In this document: positions 35,685 to 57,356 of the stretch, in pieces
Numbering within the stretch: position 1 is the first letter of the stretch
Layout of the letters: every line of letters begins with the position of its first letter
DNA from: Prolixibacteraceae bacterium
GTDB taxonomy: Bacteria; Bacteroidota; Bacteroidia; Bacteroidales; Prolixibacteraceae
Length of the DNA stretch: 64,000 nt
Direction: 5' to 3'
NCBI GenBank assembly: GCA_021740385.1
Contig: JAIOZY010000003.1
Coordinates: 62,001-126,000 of the forward strand
The notes under the pieces: generated by a model
The model's input: only the letters and a program-made list of their open reading frames with translations
What the model was told of the DNA's origin: nothing
Databases searched by the model: none
Position numbers and translations under genes: made by a program

Positions 35685-37172
35685 ATGAAAAAACAAATTA
35701 CCCTTCTTGCTTTTCTATTGATTGGCCAACTTCTTTGGGCCCAACCCCCCAATGCATGGATCAACGAAATCCATTACGACAACACCGGTTCCGATGTGAA
35801 TGAAATGGTTGAAATAGTAATTGAAAATCCCGGTTCGTATACCCTTGGCGACTTCACCCTTAGCCTGTACAACGGTAACGGAGGTTCATTTTACCAAAGT
35901 ATTACACTTAACCAATTTACCACCGGCGATAACATCAATGCATTTTACATTTACTCACGATACATTACCGGTATTCAAAACGGTTCACCCGATGGCATTT
36001 CGCTCGATTACCAGGGAACGCTTATTCAGTTTTTAAGTTATGAAGGAACTTTTGTTGCTGCCAACGGGCCTGCCAACGGGGTAACTTCCACCGATATTGG
36101 CGTGAATGAAACGGGATCGACAGGCACCAGTGAATCGCTACAACTTGGTGGCAACGGTACCGCTTATGCCGATTTTACCTGGAATGTACCGGCAACAGCC
36201 ACCCCAGGCAGTTTCAACAACGGCCAAAGCATAGGGGGAATATCGCTGCCCACCATACTTACAGCCCCCTCGACATTAACCGGCTTTTTGTACCAAACCG
36301 GTAGCGGGCCAAGCGCCAGCCAGTCGTTTACCGTTAGTGGCACAAATCTTACAGGCGATATAACCATAACGCCCCCTTCTGCTTATGAAATATCAACTGA
36401 TGATGCTACTTTTCAAAGTACAGATATTGTGCTTCCCGAAACCGGCGGACTTGTTGCACCAACCGATATTTTTGTAAGACTGATGGCCGGTTTGCCCGTA
36501 TCGCCCTATAACCAGAATGTAATGCTGTTGTCGCCCGGGGCAACCAACAAAACGGTAAGCTGCAACGGCGATGTGATCCCGGTTATGCCGCAATTGGTGA
36601 TAAACGAAATTCATGCCGACCCCGATGCAGCAAACGGCGATGCCAATAACGACGGGGTAGTCGATTCCTCGGACGATGAGTTTGTTGAAATTGTGAACAA
36701 CGACACGTACCCGGTTGACCTATCGGGCTATACCCTGAGCGACGGTATTGGCGTGAAACATTTTTTCTGGGGCATTACCCTCAACCCCAACGAAGCGATT
36801 GTGGTTTTTGGCGGTGGAACACCAACCGGTTTTGAGACCTATGCCTTAACGGCCTGGGGCGGCAGCCTGGGATTGAACAATAGTGGCGATGTTGTAACAT
36901 TGAAAGATGCCGCTTCGTATGTAGTCGATTCCTATTCCTACGGATCGGAAGGTGGCGATAACCAGTCGCTTACCCGCGACCCCGACCTTACCGGCCCTTT
37001 TGTGCAACACACCACGGCAAGCGGTTCGGGTGGCAGTTTGTTTTCGCCCGGCAACCACGTTGATGATTCGCCGTTTACCCTGCCTCCCCCGGCAGTACCG
37101 GTACACTGGATGTATAGCCTGCTGATTTTTTTAGTGGCCGGGTTAGCCATTGTACTGAAATTTAAACGGTAA
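35685..37172 (+). CDS. Exported lamin-tail-domain (LTD) protein with C-terminal membrane anchor/sorting tail
   Basis: The product has 495 residues. A signal peptide (LLIGQLLWAQ) is followed by a first LTD domain (NAWINEIHYDNTGSDVNEMV, about 22-170). A beta-sandwich domain common in Bacteroidota extracellular proteins follows (LTGDITITPPSAYEIS; about 190-300). A second LTD (LVINEIHADPDAANG, then DEFVEIVNNDTYPVDLSGYT) contains a calcium-loop-like DANNDGVVDSSDD. The end is unusual: VPVHWMYSLLIFLVAGLAIV plus LKFKR, a hydrophobic helix followed by basic residues instead of a T9SS domain. That layout matches exosortase-type or other C-terminal sorting signals. It is probably surface-located. LTD domains often accompany nucleases or adhesins, but no catalytic domain is present. 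Confidence 0.85.
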   Translation: MKKQITLLAFLLIGQLLWAQPPNAWINEIHYDNTGSDVNEMVEIVIENPGSYTLGDFTLSLYNGNGGSFYQSITLNQFTTGDNINAFYIYSRYITGIQNGSPDGISLDYQGTLIQFLSYEGTFVAANGPANGVTSTDIGVNETGSTGTSESLQLGGNGTAYADFTWNVPATATPGSFNNGQSIGGISLPTILTAPSTLTGFLYQTGSGPSASQSFTVSGTNLTGDITITPPSAYEISTDDATFQSTDIVLPETGGLVAPTDIFVRLMAGLPVSPYNQNVMLLSPGATNKTVSCNGDVIPVMPQLVINEIHADPDAANGDANNDGVVDSSDDEFVEIVNNDTYPVDLSGYTLSDGIGVKHFFWGITLNPNEAIVVFGGGTPTGFETYALTAWGGSLGLNNSGDVVTLKDAASYVVDSYSYGSEGGDNQSLTRDPDLTGPFVQHTTASGSGGSLFSPGNHVDDSPFTLPPPAVPVHWMYSLLIFLVAGLAIVLKFKR

Positions 37173-37270: not shown

Positions 37271-37942
37271 ATGAAGAATAAAATTGTTTTACTAATCGTT
37301 TTTTGCTTTTTAGGAATGCTGGGACACGCCCAGTATGCCTACCGCATCGAGGCCAATATTTTTACCAAAACACGCCTGGCCGACAGTACTTTTCAAATAA
37401 GCAAAGGCACACTTTTCTACGATAAGAACATTAAAAAGATCATTTTCGATTTTACCTTTCCTGAAAGGGAAAAAGTTGTTTTGTTCGACACCATCATGTA
37501 CACGTTCAGGGCCGATACCCTCTATTCAAAATCGTTAAACCTGCTCATCCCCGACCAATCGTTGTTCCATTTTATGCTTTCGGGTAAAATGGCCAACTTC
37601 GGGCTCGACGAAGCCAATTTCGAAATGAAAGGGTTTGAAAAGAAAAAAGACATGATTATTACCACATGGATACCACCCGAACACATGAAAGAAATCATTT
37701 CGAAAGTGCTGATTGCCACAAAAAATAAACTGCTTTATTCCGTTACCATGGTCGATGCAGAAGGGGAAGTTATGAACCGCCAGATATTAAAAAACTACGA
37801 ATTTATACAAGGCATTGAAATCCCTTCGGAACTGCTCATTGCTACTTATGCCAAAAGCGGTACAATATACCAGGTCATCAACCTTGACAATATAATTTTA
37901 AACGATCCGGAAAATGATGCAAACTATGACAAAGAATTATAA
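37271..37942 (+). CDS. Periplasmic LolA-like protein, first gene of an envelope cluster
   Basis: The product has 223 residues from the ATG at 37271; the frame is open to a TTG at 37238, which adds 11 residues before the signal. The signal peptide is KIVLLIVFCFLGMLGHAQ. The rest is a beta-rich domain (FQISKGTLFYDKNIKKIIFD, ERKV-like FPEREKVVLFDTIMYTF, a long WIPPEHMKEIISKVLI segment). It resembles the unclosed beta-barrel of outer-membrane lipoprotein carriers (LolA/LolB), but the similarity is by pattern only. Its stop is 46 bases before the YidD-like gene. The next four genes overlap one another, so this is probably the first gene of an operon. Confidence 0.75.
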   Translation: MKNKIVLLIVFCFLGMLGHAQYAYRIEANIFTKTRLADSTFQISKGTLFYDKNIKKIIFDFTFPEREKVVLFDTIMYTFRADTLYSKSLNLLIPDQSLFHFMLSGKMANFGLDEANFEMKGFEKKKDMIITTWIPPEHMKEIISKVLIATKNKLLYSVTMVDAEGEVMNRQILKNYEFIQGIEIPSELLIATYAKSGTIYQVINLDNIILNDPENDANYDKEL

Positions 37943-37953
37943 CGGCCTCCCCT

Positions 37954-37974
37954 TTCCCCTTCCAAGGAGGGGAA
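37954..37974. repeat. C-rich/G-rich inverted repeat between two cluster genes
   Basis: TTCCCCTTCC (37954-37963) and GGAGGGGAA (37966-37974) pair with one bulged base. Purine/pyrimidine-rich hairpins of this kind are a common intergenic element in Bacteroidota. No T-tract follows, so it is probably not a terminator; it may tune mRNA stability between the genes. Confidence 0.55.
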
Positions 37975-37988
37975 GTAAGGAAAATGCA

Positions 37989-38459
37989 ATGAAATACATT
38001 TCCCAAATAAATTTCGAAATGCCTCTATTTCAAAAATGTAAAACATTATTTAATTGCAATTCGTTTGAAAAGGGAATAATAACTGCGGTTTTGCTTGTAC
38101 TTTTTTCATTACCGGCATTTTCACAAAGCCCTTCGAAATTTACCCGGCTGAAAGGGCTCAATAAACCCAAAGAAAAAACCGATTTTTCGAAATACCTTAA
38201 AAACAGCAAAAACGAACTGGAAGCCACAGCTGCCTTGCTTTTCATCGGGTATAAAGATTTTTTGTCGTCGCAAGACATGAACAGTTGCGTGTTTACACCC
38301 TCGTGTTCGGTTTATGCCATTGAAAGTGTAAAGAAGAGAAACATTTTCGAAGCATATTTGATGACATTCGACCGCTTGTCACGCTGTCACCCGTTTATAA
38401 AAAATGAAGAATACCCGTATAACTTCGAAACACAGAAATATTATGACCCGGTACACTAA
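37989..38459 (+). CDS. YidD-like protein with an N-terminal export signal
   Basis: The product has 156 residues from the ATG at 37989. The C-terminal half is a YidD domain (PF01809): FIGYKDFLSSQDMNSCVFTP, SCSVYAIE, and DRLSRCHPF, with the three family cysteines at 100, 106 and 133. YidD normally is an 80-residue amphipathic protein at the inner face of the membrane that assists YidC insertion. Here the domain follows about 45 residues ending in a cleavable-looking hydrophobic stretch (GIITAVLLVLFSLPAFSQ), which suggests an extracytoplasmic location. The 3' end overlaps the next gene by 17 bases. The YidD family is confident; export and function are inferences. Confidence 0.88.
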   Translation: MKYISQINFEMPLFQKCKTLFNCNSFEKGIITAVLLVLFSLPAFSQSPSKFTRLKGLNKPKEKTDFSKYLKNSKNELEATAALLFIGYKDFLSSQDMNSCVFTPSCSVYAIESVKKRNIFEAYLMTFDRLSRCHPFIKNEEYPYNFETQKYYDPVH

Positions 38460-39279
38460 ACTGCTTATTATACCCTTATTATTATTTACAGGGTTTGCCT
38501 TTGCTCAACAAAACAACCCGTACGACTGTGAAAATTCGAAACGCTTTGCCGGCTACCTGTTCAACACCGGCCAATATGAGCTATCGATGCACGAACTGGA
38601 ACGCATCGGTTTCTTTTGCGATTACGATTCAACATCGCAACTCACACTACTGAAAGCATACCGGAAATTAAAGAAATATAACAAAGCCAACACCTTTTAC
38701 GATGGCATTGGATATGAAAACATTAAAAGCCTTTCGCCCGAATTCAGGGAAGAATACATCCGGTTACTCATGACCCAGCAACGCTACACCGATGTACAAA
38801 AAAGCATTTCGACAGATATACCGATAATACAAAAATACGAACACCTTTTAGGGACAAATTTATTGCTGAAAAAATGGGAAGAAGCGTACCAGCTTAGCCT
38901 GCGTGATGTACCCAAAACCAATTACAAAACCCTGGGGTTAAAGAATGTTGCTGAAAAGAGCTATTCTGCAAAACGGAAAAGCCCCGTGCTGGCAGCGCTT
39001 ATGTCAGTTGTTTTGCCCGGCAGCGGTAAAGCCTATTGCGGTTACTGGGGCGACGCAGCCATTTCGTTCAGCTTCGTGGCCTCGGGTGCATTTTTTGCCA
39101 TCAGGGGTTTTCAGGAATACGGTACCAACAATGCTTACCCCTGGATAATTGGGGGAATTGCCTTCAGTTATTATGTGGCAAATATTTACGGCGGGGCAAC
39201 CTCGGCAATCAGATACAACGATAACATTGACCATGGTTTTATTCATGAAACAGAAGAGATTTTATATTCTGATTATTAA
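38443..39279 (+). CDS. TPR-like exported protein with C-terminal PGSGK membrane helices (paralog A)
   Basis: The product has 278 residues from the ATG at 38443, overlapping the YidD-like gene by 17 bases. A signal peptide (IPLLLFTGFAFAQ) is followed by helical TPR-like repeats (about 25-170; RFAGYLFNTGQYELSMHELE). Then comes KRKSPVLAALMSVVLPGSGK followed by AYCGYWGDAAISF, and two or three membrane helices up to residue 260. The SPxLAAxxSxxLPGxGxxY pattern is seen in Bacteroidota DUF5683-like proteins. The next gene has the same architecture, so they look like tandem paralogs. Function unknown. Confidence 0.8.
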   Translation: MTRYTKLLIIPLLLFTGFAFAQQNNPYDCENSKRFAGYLFNTGQYELSMHELERIGFFCDYDSTSQLTLLKAYRKLKKYNKANTFYDGIGYENIKSLSPEFREEYIRLLMTQQRYTDVQKSISTDIPIIQKYEHLLGTNLLLKKWEEAYQLSLRDVPKTNYKTLGLKNVAEKSYSAKRKSPVLAALMSVVLPGSGKAYCGYWGDAAISFSFVASGAFFAIRGFQEYGTNNAYPWIIGGIAFSYYVANIYGGATSAIRYNDNIDHGFIHETEEILYSDY

Positions 39280-40105
39280 TGTGCTAATCGGCATTACGCT
39301 TCACGCCCAGCAATTGGGTGATGTTGTACAATTTGCCGATTCGCAGTTCAATAAAGGAAATTTTTCAATTGCAGCACAGGAATACAACCGTGCCCTCTTT
39401 TTCGGGTACGACGACATTGGCTACCTCTCGATGAAAATCGGGCATTGTTACATCGAACTATCGGATTATGAACAGGCCGCCAGTTTTTACGACCGCTCGT
39501 ACCGCTACGCTTCTAACGACAGCATTAAAAACGAAGCTGTGCTTGGCAAAACATTTTGCCTGGTGATGAATTCCGAGCATGTTTATGCTTTAAGTGAACT
39601 GTTAAATTTAACCACCCCAATAACCCGCGAACAGGAAGTGCAATCGTACTTCTTAAGCGGCATTGCCCATTACGGCCTCGAAAACGACACGCTGGCCTTT
39701 GAAAATTTCAATTCTGCCCTTGAATCAGCCGGCATTAACGACTCGTTGAAAACAGTGCTGCAAACCGAGTTCGAAAAAGTATACCGGTACAAAAAACGCT
39801 TCAACCCTACCCGTTCGTACATTTTGAGCGCCATTATTCCGGGCTCGGGACAAACGGCCGTTGGTGCTTTTAAAGAAGGGATCAATTCGCTGATCTTGCT
39901 ATCTGTTCTGTACTATTTAACATTCGAAGTGGCCATTTCTTTCTCTGTTCTCGATGCCATTATTACCTTTCTGCCCTGGTTTCAGCGTTATTATTTCGGG
40001 GGCATGGAAAAGGCCAAAGGGCTGGCCGTTTCCAAAATTGAAAAAGAGCGGTATAAATCTTACCTGCAAATTCTTGAACATACCACACCCGATGCCTATC
40101 GATGA
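39245..40105 (+). CDS. TPR-like exported protein with C-terminal PGSGQ membrane helices (paralog B)
   Basis: The product has 286 residues from the ATG at 39245 (MKQKRFYILIINVLIGITLH), which overlaps the preceding gene by 35 bases. The frame upstream to 39149 lies inside that gene and is rejected. TPR-like helices run from about 25 to 185 (FADSQFNKGNFSIAAQEYNR; YIELSDYEQAASFYDRSYRY). RSYILSAIIPGSGQTAVGAF starts near residue 190 and leads into two membrane helices. The layout repeats that of the upstream gene, with low sequence identity. Its stop overlaps the start of the DUF4294 gene (ATGA), which indicates coupled translation. Confidence 0.8.
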   Translation: MKQKRFYILIINVLIGITLHAQQLGDVVQFADSQFNKGNFSIAAQEYNRALFFGYDDIGYLSMKIGHCYIELSDYEQAASFYDRSYRYASNDSIKNEAVLGKTFCLVMNSEHVYALSELLNLTTPITREQEVQSYFLSGIAHYGLENDTLAFENFNSALESAGINDSLKTVLQTEFEKVYRYKKRFNPTRSYILSAIIPGSGQTAVGAFKEGINSLILLSVLYYLTFEVAISFSVLDAIITFLPWFQRYYFGGMEKAKGLAVSKIEKERYKSYLQILEHTTPDAYR

Positions 40106-40647
40106 AAATACGTCTGGCAAATAGCTTTATAACCATGGCGCTAATGGGTTCAATCTTATTACTGCCGAATTCGTCGGCTATGGCACGAAGAAACGACAAC
40201 GGCGAAAGATTACGCGACGATATGCATAAAATATGGCCTTTTCTCCAAACCGTGAAAATTGAATACAACCTGGTACAGGCCCAGCTCGAATTCATGACCG
40301 ACCTGGCCGAACGGGATACGTTTCTTTACAACTACGAACAATACGTAAAAAAAGCCTATTTCAACGAACTTATCAAGCTCAACACCAGGCAGGGGAAGTT
40401 ACTCCTGCTGCTGATACACCGCGAGCTTGGCAAAACCCCGTTTGAACTGCTCCGCTTATACCTCGACTTTGAACGGGCAACATTCTGGCAAAAATTTGCA
40501 AAATTCCTCGGCGCCGACCTGAAAGAAAAATACATTGCCCGAAACCATCCCGAAATGGAAGCCATTATTGAAGAGCTCGACTCGCTGCAAAATCCGGTGA
40601 TCAATCCTTCCGAAGAATTTTTTATTGAACCGGTTATATCTCGTTAA
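40102..40647 (+). CDS. DUF4294-like exported protein
   Basis: The product has 181 residues. A signal-like N-terminus (FITMALMGSILLLPNSSAMA) is followed by a helical domain with LNTRQGKLLLLLIHRELGKT, PFELLRLYLDF and RATFWQKFAKFLGADLKEKY. The RQGKxLLxLIxRExG pattern is that of the Bacteroidota DUF4294 family, of unknown function. It is the last gene of the five-gene cluster, joined to the previous gene by an ATGA overlap. No terminator is obvious downstream. Confidence 0.8.
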   Translation: MKIRLANSFITMALMGSILLLPNSSAMARRNDNGERLRDDMHKIWPFLQTVKIEYNLVQAQLEFMTDLAERDTFLYNYEQYVKKAYFNELIKLNTRQGKLLLLLIHRELGKTPFELLRLYLDFERATFWQKFAKFLGADLKEKYIARNHPEMEAIIEELDSLQNPVINPSEEFFIEPVISR

Positions 40648-40826: not shown

Positions 40827-43800
40827 ATGAAAACGCTTTTAAATGACCTGCAAAAAAATTCGTTCGTACTTATAAAAACAACTGCAACCCTTTTTCTTAT
40901 TGCTCTTGTACTGATGATCCCGAACACTGTCAACTCCAACACGCTTTCCACGAAAAGCCCGTTGTCAACCCCTTCAACAACGACTTACTGGGATGTTATT
41001 GCCACGCTTGATTTTGGAGGTACTTTCCAGGTTACTGCCGATGCTACCCTGATTACTTCCGGTTCGGTTTTTACCATACACCTTACCACGAAAGAAATTG
41101 CTGGCACAGAAGAAGTACATAATATTACCTTTGAAGGCACGCACGATAATGGCGTTTATACTATATCCAATAATTCATTTAATCCATTTGATGATGAAAC
41201 AGAGGTAACCCTTCACAATGCCGTCTTTACCGTTGACGGAGACAACCTCACAGGGGAAGGTTCATTTTCTGAAACAATTCCGGGTATTGGGGAAATAAAC
41301 GGAACACTTACGGCCACCGGGACAAAAACCGGGGAAGAACCTTTTCTTACGGTCTCTCCGGCTAACCTATCGTTGCCTGCTGCTTCAGGAAGCACGGGTA
41401 CATTTGAGGTTTCGGCAAATGTAAGCTGGAGTGTAATTACTATTGACCGATGGATTTCGGCATTTCCTTCATCGGGCAATAATAACGGAAGTGTATTGGT
41501 GGCGGTTTCTGCTAACAGTTTTCCTTCCGAACGAAGTGCAACAATACTTGTTACCGGCGAAGGCGTTTCAACAAAAATTGTTACGGTTACACAGGCAGCA
41601 AACGGTGATTTGACATTTCAATATCCCGTGCCCCGTTACGGCCACTCGGCATCGAAAATATGCAAGTTTGTTTATTTGCTGGGAGGAAGAAACTACCACG
41701 GTATGCTGAAAAGCGCATCTTTAAACAATGATCCTAATGCCCATTTGAGTAAAGCCCTGTACCGGTACGATACCATAACCCATGCTATTCATAAACTTAC
41801 CCCCGGTACGATGACCGAAAGCGAACCTTTACCAGGGATAATGGGACACAACGCCATTGTTTTCAGTGGAGAATTGTACGTGTTAAACGGCATACGTAGC
41901 GATACAAACAACCTGAGCACTTACGTTTACGACCCAATAACCTACAGCTGGGAAGAAGACTTTATTCCCATTCCTTATGCTTCCAAAAGCCATGCGTTTG
42001 CTTCACTTGAAAATCCCCGATCGACAGCTTGGGTCGTATTTGGTGGCCAGAAAGGGGAAAGCCTTGCTACCGACTCTTGCCACAGGTTTGAAAATATGAC
42101 AGGGGTATGGTCAAGCCTGTCCACCATGCCATTGCCCGCCGTTCATAGCGGAGCATCAATTGTTACCAACAATAAATTTTACTGCGTTGGAGGAATGACC
42201 AATGACGGCCCCTCCGGTCAAATAAGTGCATATAACCAGATTGACCGGACATGGAGTATGCTGGAAACCGAATTACCGGCAGCTATGTACGGCATGTCAT
42301 TCGCTTCAATAAAAAACAAGCTTTACCTGTATGGAGGAGCCGGATCATCGGATCTGAAATCGATGAACGCCTATAACCCCGAGCAGTTTTCCACAACGCT
42401 GTACCAGGTTACCATTGATACCCTTAGCGGGGATATTAACATAAATGAACGGGCAAATGGTCTGCCTCCGTTGCTTTACAGTGCAGGATGGACCGAAGAA
42501 AACGAAGGCGATACTTTGTTCTACACATTCGGGGGAATAAATGCCATTTTTCCTGATGGCGATACCCTGCTAACCAACAACTTTTACCGGTTTAATATGA
42601 CCGATAGTCTTGTTCAACAGTACGATACCGTCACTCAAGACTGGGGAGAACTGCATCCCGAAGTTTTTGTATCGGACGATACGTTGAACTTTGAAGCATT
42701 ACAAACATCCGAAAACGCACTTTACATTGCCTCAAACACTACCTGGAACATTTCAAGCGGTCAACCGTGGCTTGATTCCGATGTTGAAACCGCTTCGGGC
42801 AACCAGCTGGTGTTGCTATCTGTTGAAGAAAATACCTCGCTGGAAGAGCGGGAAACGGTTTTGCAAATATCCTGCAACGAAGAATCCATGCATAACATTG
42901 TCGTTATCCAGGCCGGGGCAACGCCAACCCTCTCGGCATCGGTTTCTTCACTTAACATTGGTGCCGAAACGAACAGTACAGCCGATTTTGAAATCAGTTC
43001 GAACACCGAATGGGAAATTGAATGCGATCAGGCCTGGCTTACGGTTGATCCGTTAACGGGAACCGGCAATAATACAATTACCTTAACAGCAGAAGAAAAC
43101 ATCGATCTTACTGAACGAGAGGCAATACTTACCATCACAGCAAACAATACCGAACCGCAAACAGTTACCGTTACCCAGGCCGGAGCTGAACCATTCCTTG
43201 TGATTTCAAATTTTGAAATTATTACTTCAGCAAATGCAAGTACCGATGAAAGCTTCGATGTAAATTCGAATACAACCTGGCAAATTTCGGTTAACGAAAC
43301 ATGGTTAAGTGTTAGTGAGGTAGACGGAACAGGCAATCTTACAATATCGTTGATCATCGAAGAAAACACCTCAATATTCGAACGACTCGCCACAATAAAC
43401 ATTTCGGGTACCGATATACCGGCACAATCAATTACGGTAACCCAGGAGGGTGCGCCGGCAACACTTTCTGTTTCGGAACCTCAACTTGAATTGGATGCTG
43501 AAAACGGCAGTGAAGCAACATTCGATGTTACATCGAATACAACATGGAGCGCTGCTTCCGATCAAACCTGGCTAACGGTTAACCCCGAAACGGGAACCGG
43601 CAATGCCACCGTTACCCTTGTTGCCGAAGAAAATTCGACCGGATCGGAAAGACAAGCCAATATAACAGTTATTGCTGAAGGAACAGAAGCTCAAACCATT
43701 GAAGTTTTACAGGCACCGCTTACCGGATTTACGCAACAGCATTTAAACGGTATCCGGGTTTCACCAAATCCATTTTACGATGGCATAACGGTTAACCCAA

Positions 43801-43979
43801 ACCAGAAAAACATACAGCTTTCGCTATACGACCTGAACGGGCGGTTAATGCTCACACAGGAAATTTCAGAAAAGAAACACATAAAAACAGAAGCATTGCC
43901 CGAAGGTGTTTATATTCTGGAACTGATCAGTCCGAAAGAAATCTTCAAAATGAAAATAATTAAGAAACACTCAAATTAA
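40827..43979 (+). CDS. T9SS-exported protein with five BACON domains and a Kelch propeller
   Basis: The product has 1050 residues. A long signal region (hydrophobic 15-33) is followed by a beta domain (50-168) and a first BACON domain (170-257; LTVSPANLSLPAASGSTGTF). A Kelch-type beta-propeller occupies about 265-600 (YGHSASKICKFVYLLGGRNY and further blades with GG motifs). Four more BACON domains follow (about 609-697, 697-787, 787-875, 875-963), each with NTTWxxS...W(L/S) and TVTQ-like endings. A T9SS sorting domain closes it (VSPNPFYDGITVN ... MKIIKKHSN). BACON domains bind mucins or glycans or act as spacers. It is predicted to be a surface adhesin or glycan-binding protein. Its stop overlaps the convergent lipase-like gene by 4 bases. 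Confidence 0.9.
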   Translation: MKTLLNDLQKNSFVLIKTTATLFLIALVLMIPNTVNSNTLSTKSPLSTPSTTTYWDVIATLDFGGTFQVTADATLITSGSVFTIHLTTKEIAGTEEVHNITFEGTHDNGVYTISNNSFNPFDDETEVTLHNAVFTVDGDNLTGEGSFSETIPGIGEINGTLTATGTKTGEEPFLTVSPANLSLPAASGSTGTFEVSANVSWSVITIDRWISAFPSSGNNNGSVLVAVSANSFPSERSATILVTGEGVSTKIVTVTQAANGDLTFQYPVPRYGHSASKICKFVYLLGGRNYHGMLKSASLNNDPNAHLSKALYRYDTITHAIHKLTPGTMTESEPLPGIMGHNAIVFSGELYVLNGIRSDTNNLSTYVYDPITYSWEEDFIPIPYASKSHAFASLENPRSTAWVVFGGQKGESLATDSCHRFENMTGVWSSLSTMPLPAVHSGASIVTNNKFYCVGGMTNDGPSGQISAYNQIDRTWSMLETELPAAMYGMSFASIKNKLYLYGGAGSSDLKSMNAYNPEQFSTTLYQVTIDTLSGDININERANGLPPLLYSAGWTEENEGDTLFYTFGGINAIFPDGDTLLTNNFYRFNMTDSLVQQYDTVTQDWGELHPEVFVSDDTLNFEALQTSENALYIASNTTWNISSGQPWLDSDVETASGNQLVLLSVEENTSLEERETVLQISCNEESMHNIVVIQAGATPTLSASVSSLNIGAETNSTADFEISSNTEWEIECDQAWLTVDPLTGTGNNTITLTAEENIDLTEREAILTITANNTEPQTVTVTQAGAEPFLVISNFEIITSANASTDESFDVNSNTTWQISVNETWLSVSEVDGTGNLTISLIIEENTSIFERLATINISGTDIPAQSITVTQEGAPATLSVSEPQLELDAENGSEATFDVTSNTTWSAASDQTWLTVNPETGTGNATVTLVAEENSTGSERQANITVIAEGTEAQTIEVLQAPLTGFTQQHLNGIRVSPNPFYDGITVNPNQKNIQLSLYDLNGRLMLTQEISEKKHIKTEALPEGVYILELISPKEIFKMKIIKKHSN

Positions 43980-55146: not shown

Positions 55147-55581
55147 ATGATAGTAAAAATTGTCAATAAATCGAACAATCCATTACCGGCTTACAGCACA
55201 ATACATTCAGCCGGTATGGACCTTCGCGCACATATTGATCACGATATTGAACTTAAACCCCTTGAAAGGACACTGGTCCCAACGGGGCTATACATTGAAT
55301 TGCCAGTGGGCTTCGAAGCCCAGATAAGGCCCCGCAGTGGCCTGGCAATAAAACAGGGAATAACCGTTTTAAATACACCGGGAACAATCGATGCCGATTA
55401 CCGGGGCGAAATTCGTGTTATACTTGTAAACCTTTCGAACGAAAAAGTTATCATTAAAAGCGGAGAACGGATTTGCCAGATAATTGTTTCAAAACACGAA
55501 ACGGTAACATGGGAACAAGTAGCAATTTTGGAAGAAACAAAACGAGGAGAAGGTGGTTTTGGCCACACCGGCAAAAAATAG
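55147..55581 (+). CDS. dut: dUTP diphosphatase
   Basis: The product has 144 residues, the size of trimeric dUTPases, which hydrolyse dUTP to dUMP and pyrophosphate. All five motifs are visible: [11 protein letters not shown] (1), [11 protein letters not shown] (2), [15 protein letters not shown] (3), [10 protein letters not shown] (4) and the C-terminal Gly-rich [10 protein letters not shown] (5). It is followed after 11 bases by the TPR lipoprotein gene. Confidence 0.97.
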
Positions 55582-55592
55582 TAGCAAAAACA

Positions 55593-57356
55593 ATGAACAA
55601 AATAATAATCTTTTTTTTAGCATCGATACTTTTCTTTTTTACGGCATGCAGTACTCAGAAAAAAATAGCAGAAACTTCTGAGAAAGATAATACTACAACC
55701 AGTGAAGACGGATTTGCAAGTGAACAGAAAAAAATTGAATTTGAATACCTTTTTATCGAGGGACTGAAACAAAAAATGATTGGCAGCCCCGATAACGCCA
55801 TTCAATATTTCAACAGTTGCCTTGATATTATGCCCAATTCGGCAGCCGTTTTGTACGAACTTGCCAACATCCACTACATAAAAAACGACTTTACAAGCGC
55901 AAAGTTGTTGTTAGAAAGGGCCATTGATATCAACCCCGAAAATAAATGGTACAAGCTACTCCTTGCGCAAATTTTGCAAAACAACCAGCAATACCTCGAG
56001 GCCAGTAAAATATACCGGGAATTGATAAAAACCGAACCCGACAACATCAATTTTTATTACCTCAATGCTTTACTTTTATCATCGGGCGGCCAATACGATG
56101 AAGCCATAAAAGCCTACAACCAACTTGAAGAAAAAACCGGCTTTAACGAACAAATTTCTATGGCACGCCAACAACTTTATCGCCAGGCAGGAAAAGATAA
56201 GGAAGCGTATAAAGAAATTGAAAAACTGATTGAACACGATCCCACTGTACCGGAATACTACGGCCTGCTTGCCGACATGTACAAAGAAGACGGTGAAATG
56301 AACAAAGCACTCGAGTATTACAATAAAGTACTTGAAATTGAACCCGGAAACGGTTTTGTTCACTTTTCGCTTGCAACGTTTTACATCCAGAATAAAGAAC
56401 CTGAAAAAGCATTTACGCATGCCAAACAAGGGTTTCATAACCCCGATATCGAAATTGAAACAAAAATTCAGCTCTACCTTATGCTGGCCACTGCACCCAA
56501 AGAACAGAATTTTAGCGATGAAGAAATTTTGGAATTGGTCGATATTATTTCACAAGTACACCCCGATGATCCCCGCAGTTACAGCATTAAGGCCGATTAT
56601 TTTATTCAACGCAACCGGTTATCCGAAGCAAAGGACTATTTAGAAAAAGCCCTCGATGTTGATCCCAACTCGTACCCACTTTGGGAACAACTGATAATTT
56701 TAGACAACCAAACCGGTGATTATGAAAGCATGGGCAAACACAGCAAAAAAACCATGGAGTTGTTTCCCACCCAACCGCTTCCTTACGTGTTGAATGCCGT
56801 TGCCAACATTCAATTGGAAGCGTATGAAAAAGCCCTCGATGCACTTGAAGCCGGGCAAACGTACCTTGTCGATAATAAAAAGCTTGAGGCCCAGTTTGAG
56901 CTATACAGGGCCGAAGCATATTACAACCTGAACAAACGCAGTGAAGCATTCGAGGCCTTCGAAAAAGTAATTGAAATTGAGCCCGATAACTACATGGCCA
57001 TGAATAACTATGCTTATTACCTGTCGTTAAAAGGTGAAAAACTCGACAGGGCTGAAATGTTAAGCAGTGAAGTTGTTAAGGCCAATCCGAACAACCCAAC
57101 ATATCTCGATACACATGCCTGGGTACTGTTTAAAAAACAAGAATTCCGCCTGGCAAAATTTTACATGGAAACCGCTATGAAAAACGGTGGCAACGAAAGC
57201 GCGGTGGTTGTTGAACACTATGGCGATATTTTGTACAACCTTGGCGAAACCGAAAAGGCCATTAAAAACTGGGAAAAATCGGCCGAAATGGGCAATGAAT
57301 CAAAAACATTGCAACAAAAAATTTTTGAAAAAAGGTATATAGAAGGAGAAGAATAA
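55593..57356 (+). CDS. TPR-repeat lipoprotein
   Basis: The product has 587 residues from the ATG at 55593; the frame upstream to 55473 lies inside dut and is rejected. The lipoprotein signal is FFLASILFFFTACSTQ (Cys near 19). About 13 tetratricopeptide repeats fill the mature part (NAIQYFNSCLDIMPNSAAVL; KALEYYNKVLEIEPGNGFVH; SEAFEAFEKVIEIEPDNYMA). The position after dut and before DUF4292 and EnvC-type genes recurs in Bacteroidota (from memory), so a role in outer-membrane or cell-wall assembly is plausible. It shares one base with the next gene (TAATG). Confidence 0.93.
   Translation: MNKIIIFFLASILFFFTACSTQKKIAETSEKDNTTTSEDGFASEQKKIEFEYLFIEGLKQKMIGSPDNAIQYFNSCLDIMPNSAAVLYELANIHYIKNDFTSAKLLLERAIDINPENKWYKLLLAQILQNNQQYLEASKIYRELIKTEPDNINFYYLNALLLSSGGQYDEAIKAYNQLEEKTGFNEQISMARQQLYRQAGKDKEAYKEIEKLIEHDPTVPEYYGLLADMYKEDGEMNKALEYYNKVLEIEPGNGFVHFSLATFYIQNKEPEKAFTHAKQGFHNPDIEIETKIQLYLMLATAPKEQNFSDEEILELVDIISQVHPDDPRSYSIKADYFIQRNRLSEAKDYLEKALDVDPNSYPLWEQLIILDNQTGDYESMGKHSKKTMELFPTQPLPYVLNAVANIQLEAYEKALDALEAGQTYLVDNKKLEAQFELYRAEAYYNLNKRSEAFEAFEKVIEIEPDNYMAMNNYAYYLSLKGEKLDRAEMLSSEVVKANPNNPTYLDTHAWVLFKKQEFRLAKFYMETAMKNGGNESAVVVEHYGDILYNLGETEKAIKNWEKSAEMGNESKTLQQKIFEKRYIEGEE

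Follow-up and report, generated by a model that had tools for sequence, protein, structure and literature searches.

A predicted exported YidD-like protein in a conserved Bacteroidota gene module with a candidate family of hairpin membrane proteins

Introduction

YidD is a widespread, poorly understood protein whose site of action is assumed to be the cytoplasm. A locus of a Prolixibacteraceae bacterium (Bacteroidota), at which a YidD-like domain follows a predicted signal peptide and is encoded among other putative envelope genes, raises the question of what such a protein might do beyond the inner membrane and with which partners. The locus lies at 37271 to 40647 of a stretch of 64,000 nucleotides (assembly GCA_021740385.1, contig JAIOZY010000003.1, positions 62,001 to 126,000), which will be referred to as the window. 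A sequence-only reading had described it as a five-gene envelope cluster and suggested that it encodes one complex, perhaps for outer-membrane insertion or export. We report here that four of the genes recur as a module in Bacteroidota together with a family of small proteins (UP) that, judged from sequence comparison, is encoded by the fifth core gene and was missed by that reading. We propose, with about an even chance of being right, that UP, a LolA-like protein, the exported YidD and two paralogues (PG1 and PG2) represent a biogenesis and delivery route for UP proteins carrying a membrane hairpin.

Results and Discussion

The gene cluster and predicted export of its products

Five co-directional open reading frames are located at 37271-40647 on the plus strand, separated by a gap of 46 nucleotides followed by overlaps of 17, 35 and 4 nucleotides, exactly as had been described:

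37271..37942, plus strand: LolA-like periplasmic protein, 223 residues, with a predicted Sec signal peptide (GHA|Q) and an AF2 fold model
37989..38459, plus strand: exported YidD-like protein, 156 residues from the ATG at 37989 (PF01809, TIGR00278)
38443..39279, plus strand: PG1, with signal peptide, TPR-like N-terminal region and C-terminal PGSG hairpin-like domain (alignment, conserved order)
39245..40105, plus strand: PG2, a PG1 paralogue with signal peptide, TPR and C-terminal hairpin-like domain (TPR_2 match, phmmer)
40102..40647, plus strand: DUF4294 protein, a lineage-specific neighbour (PF14127) overlapping PG2 by 4 nucleotides

All five products are predicted to start with a hydrophobic Sec-type N-terminus, as the sequence-only reading had also noted, and in four of them (the DUF4294 protein being the exception) the signal is closed by an A/S|Q junction (GHA|QYA, AFS|QSP, AFA|QQN and LHA|QQL).

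The YidD assignment is clear, with 63 bits for PF01809 (cut-off 27) and 51.2 bits for TIGR00278 (cut-off 40); the domain itself is encoded at approximately 38232-38405. An alternative start codon, ATG 37926, would make the gene overlap the LolA-like gene by 17 nucleotides. Across 66 relatives, the core columns Y, S, Q, C, C, S, D, R, R and C are invariant, including the three cysteines of ordinary YidD, and the Q after the signal peptide is nearly so. In E. coli, YidD has been described as a membrane-protein insertion efficiency factor (Yu et al. 2011, as cited in PMC8082313). The window protein shares with it the C..C..RC core and the D-P tail but differs in its gene context, in its predicted signal peptide (...LFSLPAFS|Q) and in an extension of ~78 residues ahead of the Cys motif; neither the protein nor its relatives thus fit the description of the YidD family as short cytoplasmic proteins without a signal peptide. 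Of 74 relatives, 70 have a hydrophobic stretch at the N-terminus. As a second line of evidence, a single chain at one locus (L192) combines a signal peptide, a YidD domain (residues 27-106, TIGR00278 55.8 bits), a TPR region and a PGSG domain. Both YidD and the TPR region follow the signal peptide and precede the hairpin-like domain, and are therefore predicted to reside together on the periplasmic side. The earlier observation of a YidD domain behind a cleavable-looking signal is therefore consistent with export. A canonical YidD is encoded on another contig of the same genome (G000:C45), which makes the window copy a predicted additional, exported paralogue.

Conservation of gene order and the position of DUF4294

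Among 198 genomes searched within the class, the YidD-like protein has many relatives that are likewise predicted to be exported, and 17 genomes including that of the window contain the order LolA-like, YidD, PG1, PG2. In one of them (L050, G150) YidD was placed at the locus by protein search, and in another (L043, G099) a single PG gene was called after YidD, a second PG1 match being located on another contig. To these we added 80 loci from named genomes (Emticicia, Lacihabitans, Spirosoma, Jiulongibacter, Rhabdobacter, Marivirga, Marinoscillum, Saprospiraceae, Chitinophagales and metagenome-assembled genomes of Bacteroidales), which were found with the PG1 profile, so that their counts describe the surroundings of PG1 and not the frequency of the module. 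LolA-YidD-PG was present at 69 of these loci, YidD-PG1-PG2 at 71 and UP-LolA-YidD-PG at 65, and several of the exceptions lie on short contigs that are truncated at an end. Counted as adjacent pairs, PG1 was followed by PG2 82 times, YidD by PG1 78 times, LolA by YidD 73 times, UP by LolA 63 times and UP by a further UP 29 times; five loci (L084, L101, L114, L117 and L129) carry two divergent modules each. The proteins are only ~20-40% identical across many families, which rules out an artefact of near-identical genomes. The order therefore recurs across Bacteroidota, far beyond close relatives, and a lack of such conservation, which would have refuted the sequence-only reading, was not observed. 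Two module loci (L086 and L139) come from records titled Gammaproteobacteria and Rickettsiales. The UP of L139 is nearly identical to that of a Marinoscillum locus (L142), and the titles probably represent mislabelled Bacteroidota bins.

The fifth gene of the window behaved differently. Its product clearly belongs to PF14127 (92.3 bits, cut-off 27), a family that occurs in 182 of the 198 class genomes, with three copies in the genome of the window, and is elsewhere unlinked to the module; it was found at none of the other module loci examined. Being nearly universal and adjacent to the module in the window alone, DUF4294 was rejected as a core member, and its 4-nucleotide overlap with PG2 appears from this comparison to be a local arrangement. 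Thus, of the interpretation given by the sequence-only reading, the exported YidD and the conserved order were retained, the inclusion of DUF4294 was not, and the UP family had been overlooked.

UP, a family matched to the module

UP proteins of ~150 residues are encoded directly upstream of the LolA-like gene at most loci, often in tandem. They consist of a signal peptide, a helical segment of ~70 residues with the motif LF..DE..I..EF..LN.LE..V..NEG.T and a C-terminal pair of hydrophobic segments, resembling a hairpin of two transmembrane helices, around PLGIPSFxWGxxLGxxGxxxVYxxxDxDxxKKAxxGC or WGSFAWGFCCxPxGxF. None was found within the 64-kb window. The genome, in contrast, contains an array of four that lies ~18 kb before the first position of the window and one copy on another contig, and these five are 28-48% identical to one another.

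A profile search detected UP in 17 of the 198 class genomes, a set identical to that of the genomes with the LolA-containing module; the chance of such a match is 6.5e-25 if genomes are treated as independent. The LolA-like profile itself matched 29 class genomes, including every one of the 17 with UP (chance ~3e-17, calculated from binomial coefficients on the same assumption). The other 12 mostly gave weaker matches, and those examined (L062 and L071) represent a second module type lacking UP, a division of the 29 that was made after the fact by score and neighbourhood. As the UP profile had been built from 12 of the 17 genomes, the remaining 186 are the more informative: UP was detected in five of them, the remaining module genomes G000, G017, G036, G099 and G150, and in the first four it is not linked to the module. 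Within families that have members on both sides (f33, f52 and f55), genomes without the module are also without UP. When 40 genomes were searched with a profile of the N-terminal segment, the same 17 were recovered and none of the remaining 23, three of which have diverged modules with weak UP-like neighbours; no further client types sharing only the UP N-terminus were found among the 40. The phylum-wide sample added three weak matches, two to the hydrophobic part alone (G247 and G271) and one partial, in a long frame (G452).

These data also bear on the possibility that the envelope genes of the cluster share no function and form an ordinary operon, kept in order by drift or by block horizontal transfer. 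The patchy distribution (17/198) would be compatible with block transfer. Nevertheless, the YidD-PG1 fusion, the order retained at such low protein identity across many families and the matching of UP to the module in four genomes in which it is unlinked make this explanation very improbable.

Whether UP is handled by the module or forms part of it is a separate question. Its occurrence in tandem or unlinked multiple copies, compared to one set of machinery genes, led us to regard UP as client rather than machine. Conversely, UP could be the subunit of an envelope structure built by all five proteins, such as a channel or a pilin-like assembly made of hairpin subunits, the other proteins acting as assembly factors or parts. 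The layout of UP resembles that of small two-helix pilins and rings, tandem copies would suit a polymer of several subunits, and the co-occurrence with the module fits equally well. Type IV secretion pilins (T4SS_pilin, PF18895) share with UP the signal peptide and a pair of hydrophobic helices that includes a charged loop, but UP differs by its additional helical segment of ~70 residues and by scores that are inconsistent and below the cut-off: only 3 of 59 members matched at E<=0.01, two of which, when inspected, reached 17.7-17.8 bits (cut-off 26.6). Such sub-threshold Pfam matches are spread over unrelated membrane families, as expected from hydrophobicity alone, and no further conserved gene able to serve as an assembly motor was found at module loci. 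We therefore consider a subunit role unlikely. UP was likewise rejected as a member of a known family, all Pfam matches being below threshold; against NCBIfam, four of the five UPs from the genome of the window gave no match and the fifth a meaningless one (glucose-6-phosphate dehydrogenase). A UP variant at L118:5474-5941 has a TM2-like C-terminus (21.1 bits, cut-off 27.9). This suggests, on the basis of its sequence, that hairpins of different kinds can be joined to one and the same N-terminal segment.

The LolA-like protein

Orthologues of the LolA-like protein are encoded directly upstream of YidD at most loci. By sequence the window protein falls below the Pfam LolA_like cut-off (15.3 bits against 30), and 12 of 68 relatives show a weak match (best E 2.3e-05). 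The assignment was kept because an AF2 model (AlphaFold/VIA, pLDDT 94.4) has the LolA/LolB half-barrel fold, its best PDB matches giving Z scores of 15.4-16.0 over 181-189 residues (9tp6, 9tpm and 3bk5); fold matches include putative lipoprotein-sorting proteins as well as LolA3 and LolB of P. gingivalis. The earlier label of a lipoprotein-carrier-like protein is thus borne out by the model, although not by the sequence score. As it carries a Sec rather than a lipoprotein signal, the protein resembles the soluble carrier LolA more than the anchored LolB.

Several such carriers have been described in Bacteroidota. F. johnsoniae has LolA1-3 and LolB1-2, of which lolA2/lolB2 are always found within flexirubin-type pigment loci, a precedent for dedicated carrier pairs (PMC11885536). 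For P. gingivalis, LolA3 and LolB carriers have been reported, LolA being characterized by a conserved Arg in the beta2-beta3 loop and LolB by an exposed Leu in the beta3-beta4 loop (PMC13103446). The window protein shares the fold and a Sec signal peptide with these carriers but is linked to YidD and TPR proteins instead of lolB or pigment genes. By sequence it did not match the P. gingivalis LolA3 or LolB chains even at E 1, and LolA3 was therefore rejected as its orthologue despite the agreement in fold.

PG1 and PG2

Consistent with the earlier description of two TPR/PGSG membrane proteins, PG1 and PG2 combine TPR-like N-termini with PGSG hairpin-like C-termini. Their reciprocal phmmer matches (E ~1e-6) identify them as paralogues; PG2 matches TPR_2 in Pfam (E 1.2e-05), and the PG1 alignment revealed the C-terminal motif KSPxLAxxLSxxxPGxGKxY...FYxGNIYG. 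Weak TPR and TM2/DUF5683 matches were obtained in members. The likeness to the latter hairpin domains consists of the PGxGQ/K-Y motif and these weak matches; scores below the cut-off, the fused TPR region and the occurrence as a pair set PG1 and PG2 apart. Elsewhere in the window, a long frame at 55473-57356 shows TPR-type similarity to PG1/PG2 (E ~1e-10), with no YidD or LolA-like partner in the window.

A broader core and a possible delivery route

A phylum-wide set of 395 genomes yielded PG1 in 45, mostly within a YidD-PG1-PG2 unit that lacks both LolA and UP (families f73 and f91); the full five-gene order is present in f81 (L182). From this distribution, YidD-PG1-PG2 appears to be the broader core and the LolA-like protein and UP an extension. 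The core might accordingly be a general quality or insertion factor for membrane proteins on the periplasmic side, to which LolA-like protein and UP were added for regulation in some Bacteroidota. Its occurrence without LolA and UP in other classes and in some Bacteroidia would fit, as would the single long PG-type frame that replaces the two expected genes at three loci (L054, L058 and L092). Yet 147 of the 198 class genomes do without PG1, and the tight operon with UP matched to the LolA-containing module points to a specific client. We regard a general factor as improbable.

For the delivery of UP as client, the following sequence of events is conceivable. UP precursors would cross the inner membrane by Sec, after which a YidD/PG1/PG2 complex would take over the C-terminal hairpin at the periplasmic face. 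Within this complex, the exported YidD may work like its cytoplasmic counterpart, helping hydrophobic segments to enter membranes, but would do so from the trans side. The TPR regions may grip the N-terminal segment of UP. The LolA-like half-barrel would then shield the hairpin, or lipid where UP is a lipoprotein, and ferry UP through the periplasm to its destination, probably the outer membrane. Some Emticicia UPs with a lipobox-like signal (LASC|QK) fit a LolA client. We infer a role in outer-membrane insertion or export, as had been suggested first.

Several points weigh against this route. All support for it comes from sequence and computation, and the genomes used for co-occurrence are not independent. 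Most UPs have an ordinary Sec signal and not a lipobox, so that lipid cargo of the Lol type is not general, and UP could itself be a subunit of the machine. In other classes and several Bacteroidia the core is present without LolA or UP, and its job there must be another or a broader one. The membrane segments of PG1 are weak in the hydropathy scan. Structure models within the module cover the LolA-like protein and the exported YidD, PG1 and PG2 being known from their sequences. The YidD model is of moderate confidence (79), and no fold relative stood out in the PDB (best Z 3.6 among 36 aligned chains); there was no sequence match either.

The claim that no system of this composition has been described held for the open-access literature, in which we found no described system that matches the gene set or the UP family; the parts belong to known folds. 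YidD is absent from the two papers on LolA/LolB of Bacteroidota (PMC11885536 and PMC13103446), and within the open-access papers covered both terms occur together in a single one, a Leptospira transcriptome study. An exported YidD, fused to its TPR-hairpin partner in one genome and accompanied by one candidate client family, offers a small setting for testing YidD activity. The module would also add a carrier of the LolA fold that probably serves a membrane protein with two helices. Should this client be delivered to the outer membrane, it would represent a new way in which helical proteins are placed in that membrane.

Other features of the window

Between the LolA-like gene and the YidD start lies a GC-rich inverted repeat (37944-37975). 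Its core, TTCCAAGGAGGGGAA, occurs in five copies in the genome (at most one mismatch) and in none in the backward reading, indicating a small dispersed repeat. Upstream of the cluster, 35685-37172 encodes an exported protein with a lamin-tail domain (PF00932), which matched no NCBIfam model and whose C-terminal end, PVPVHWMYSLLIFLVAGLAIVLKFKR, resembles a membrane-anchoring sorting tail. Downstream, 40827-43979 encodes a large protein with mutarotase/Kelch-like similarity and a type A sorting tail of the type IX secretion system (T9SS; TIGR04183, 45.5 bits); its several SSNTxWxxxxxxxWLxVxPxxG repeats look like BACON domains.

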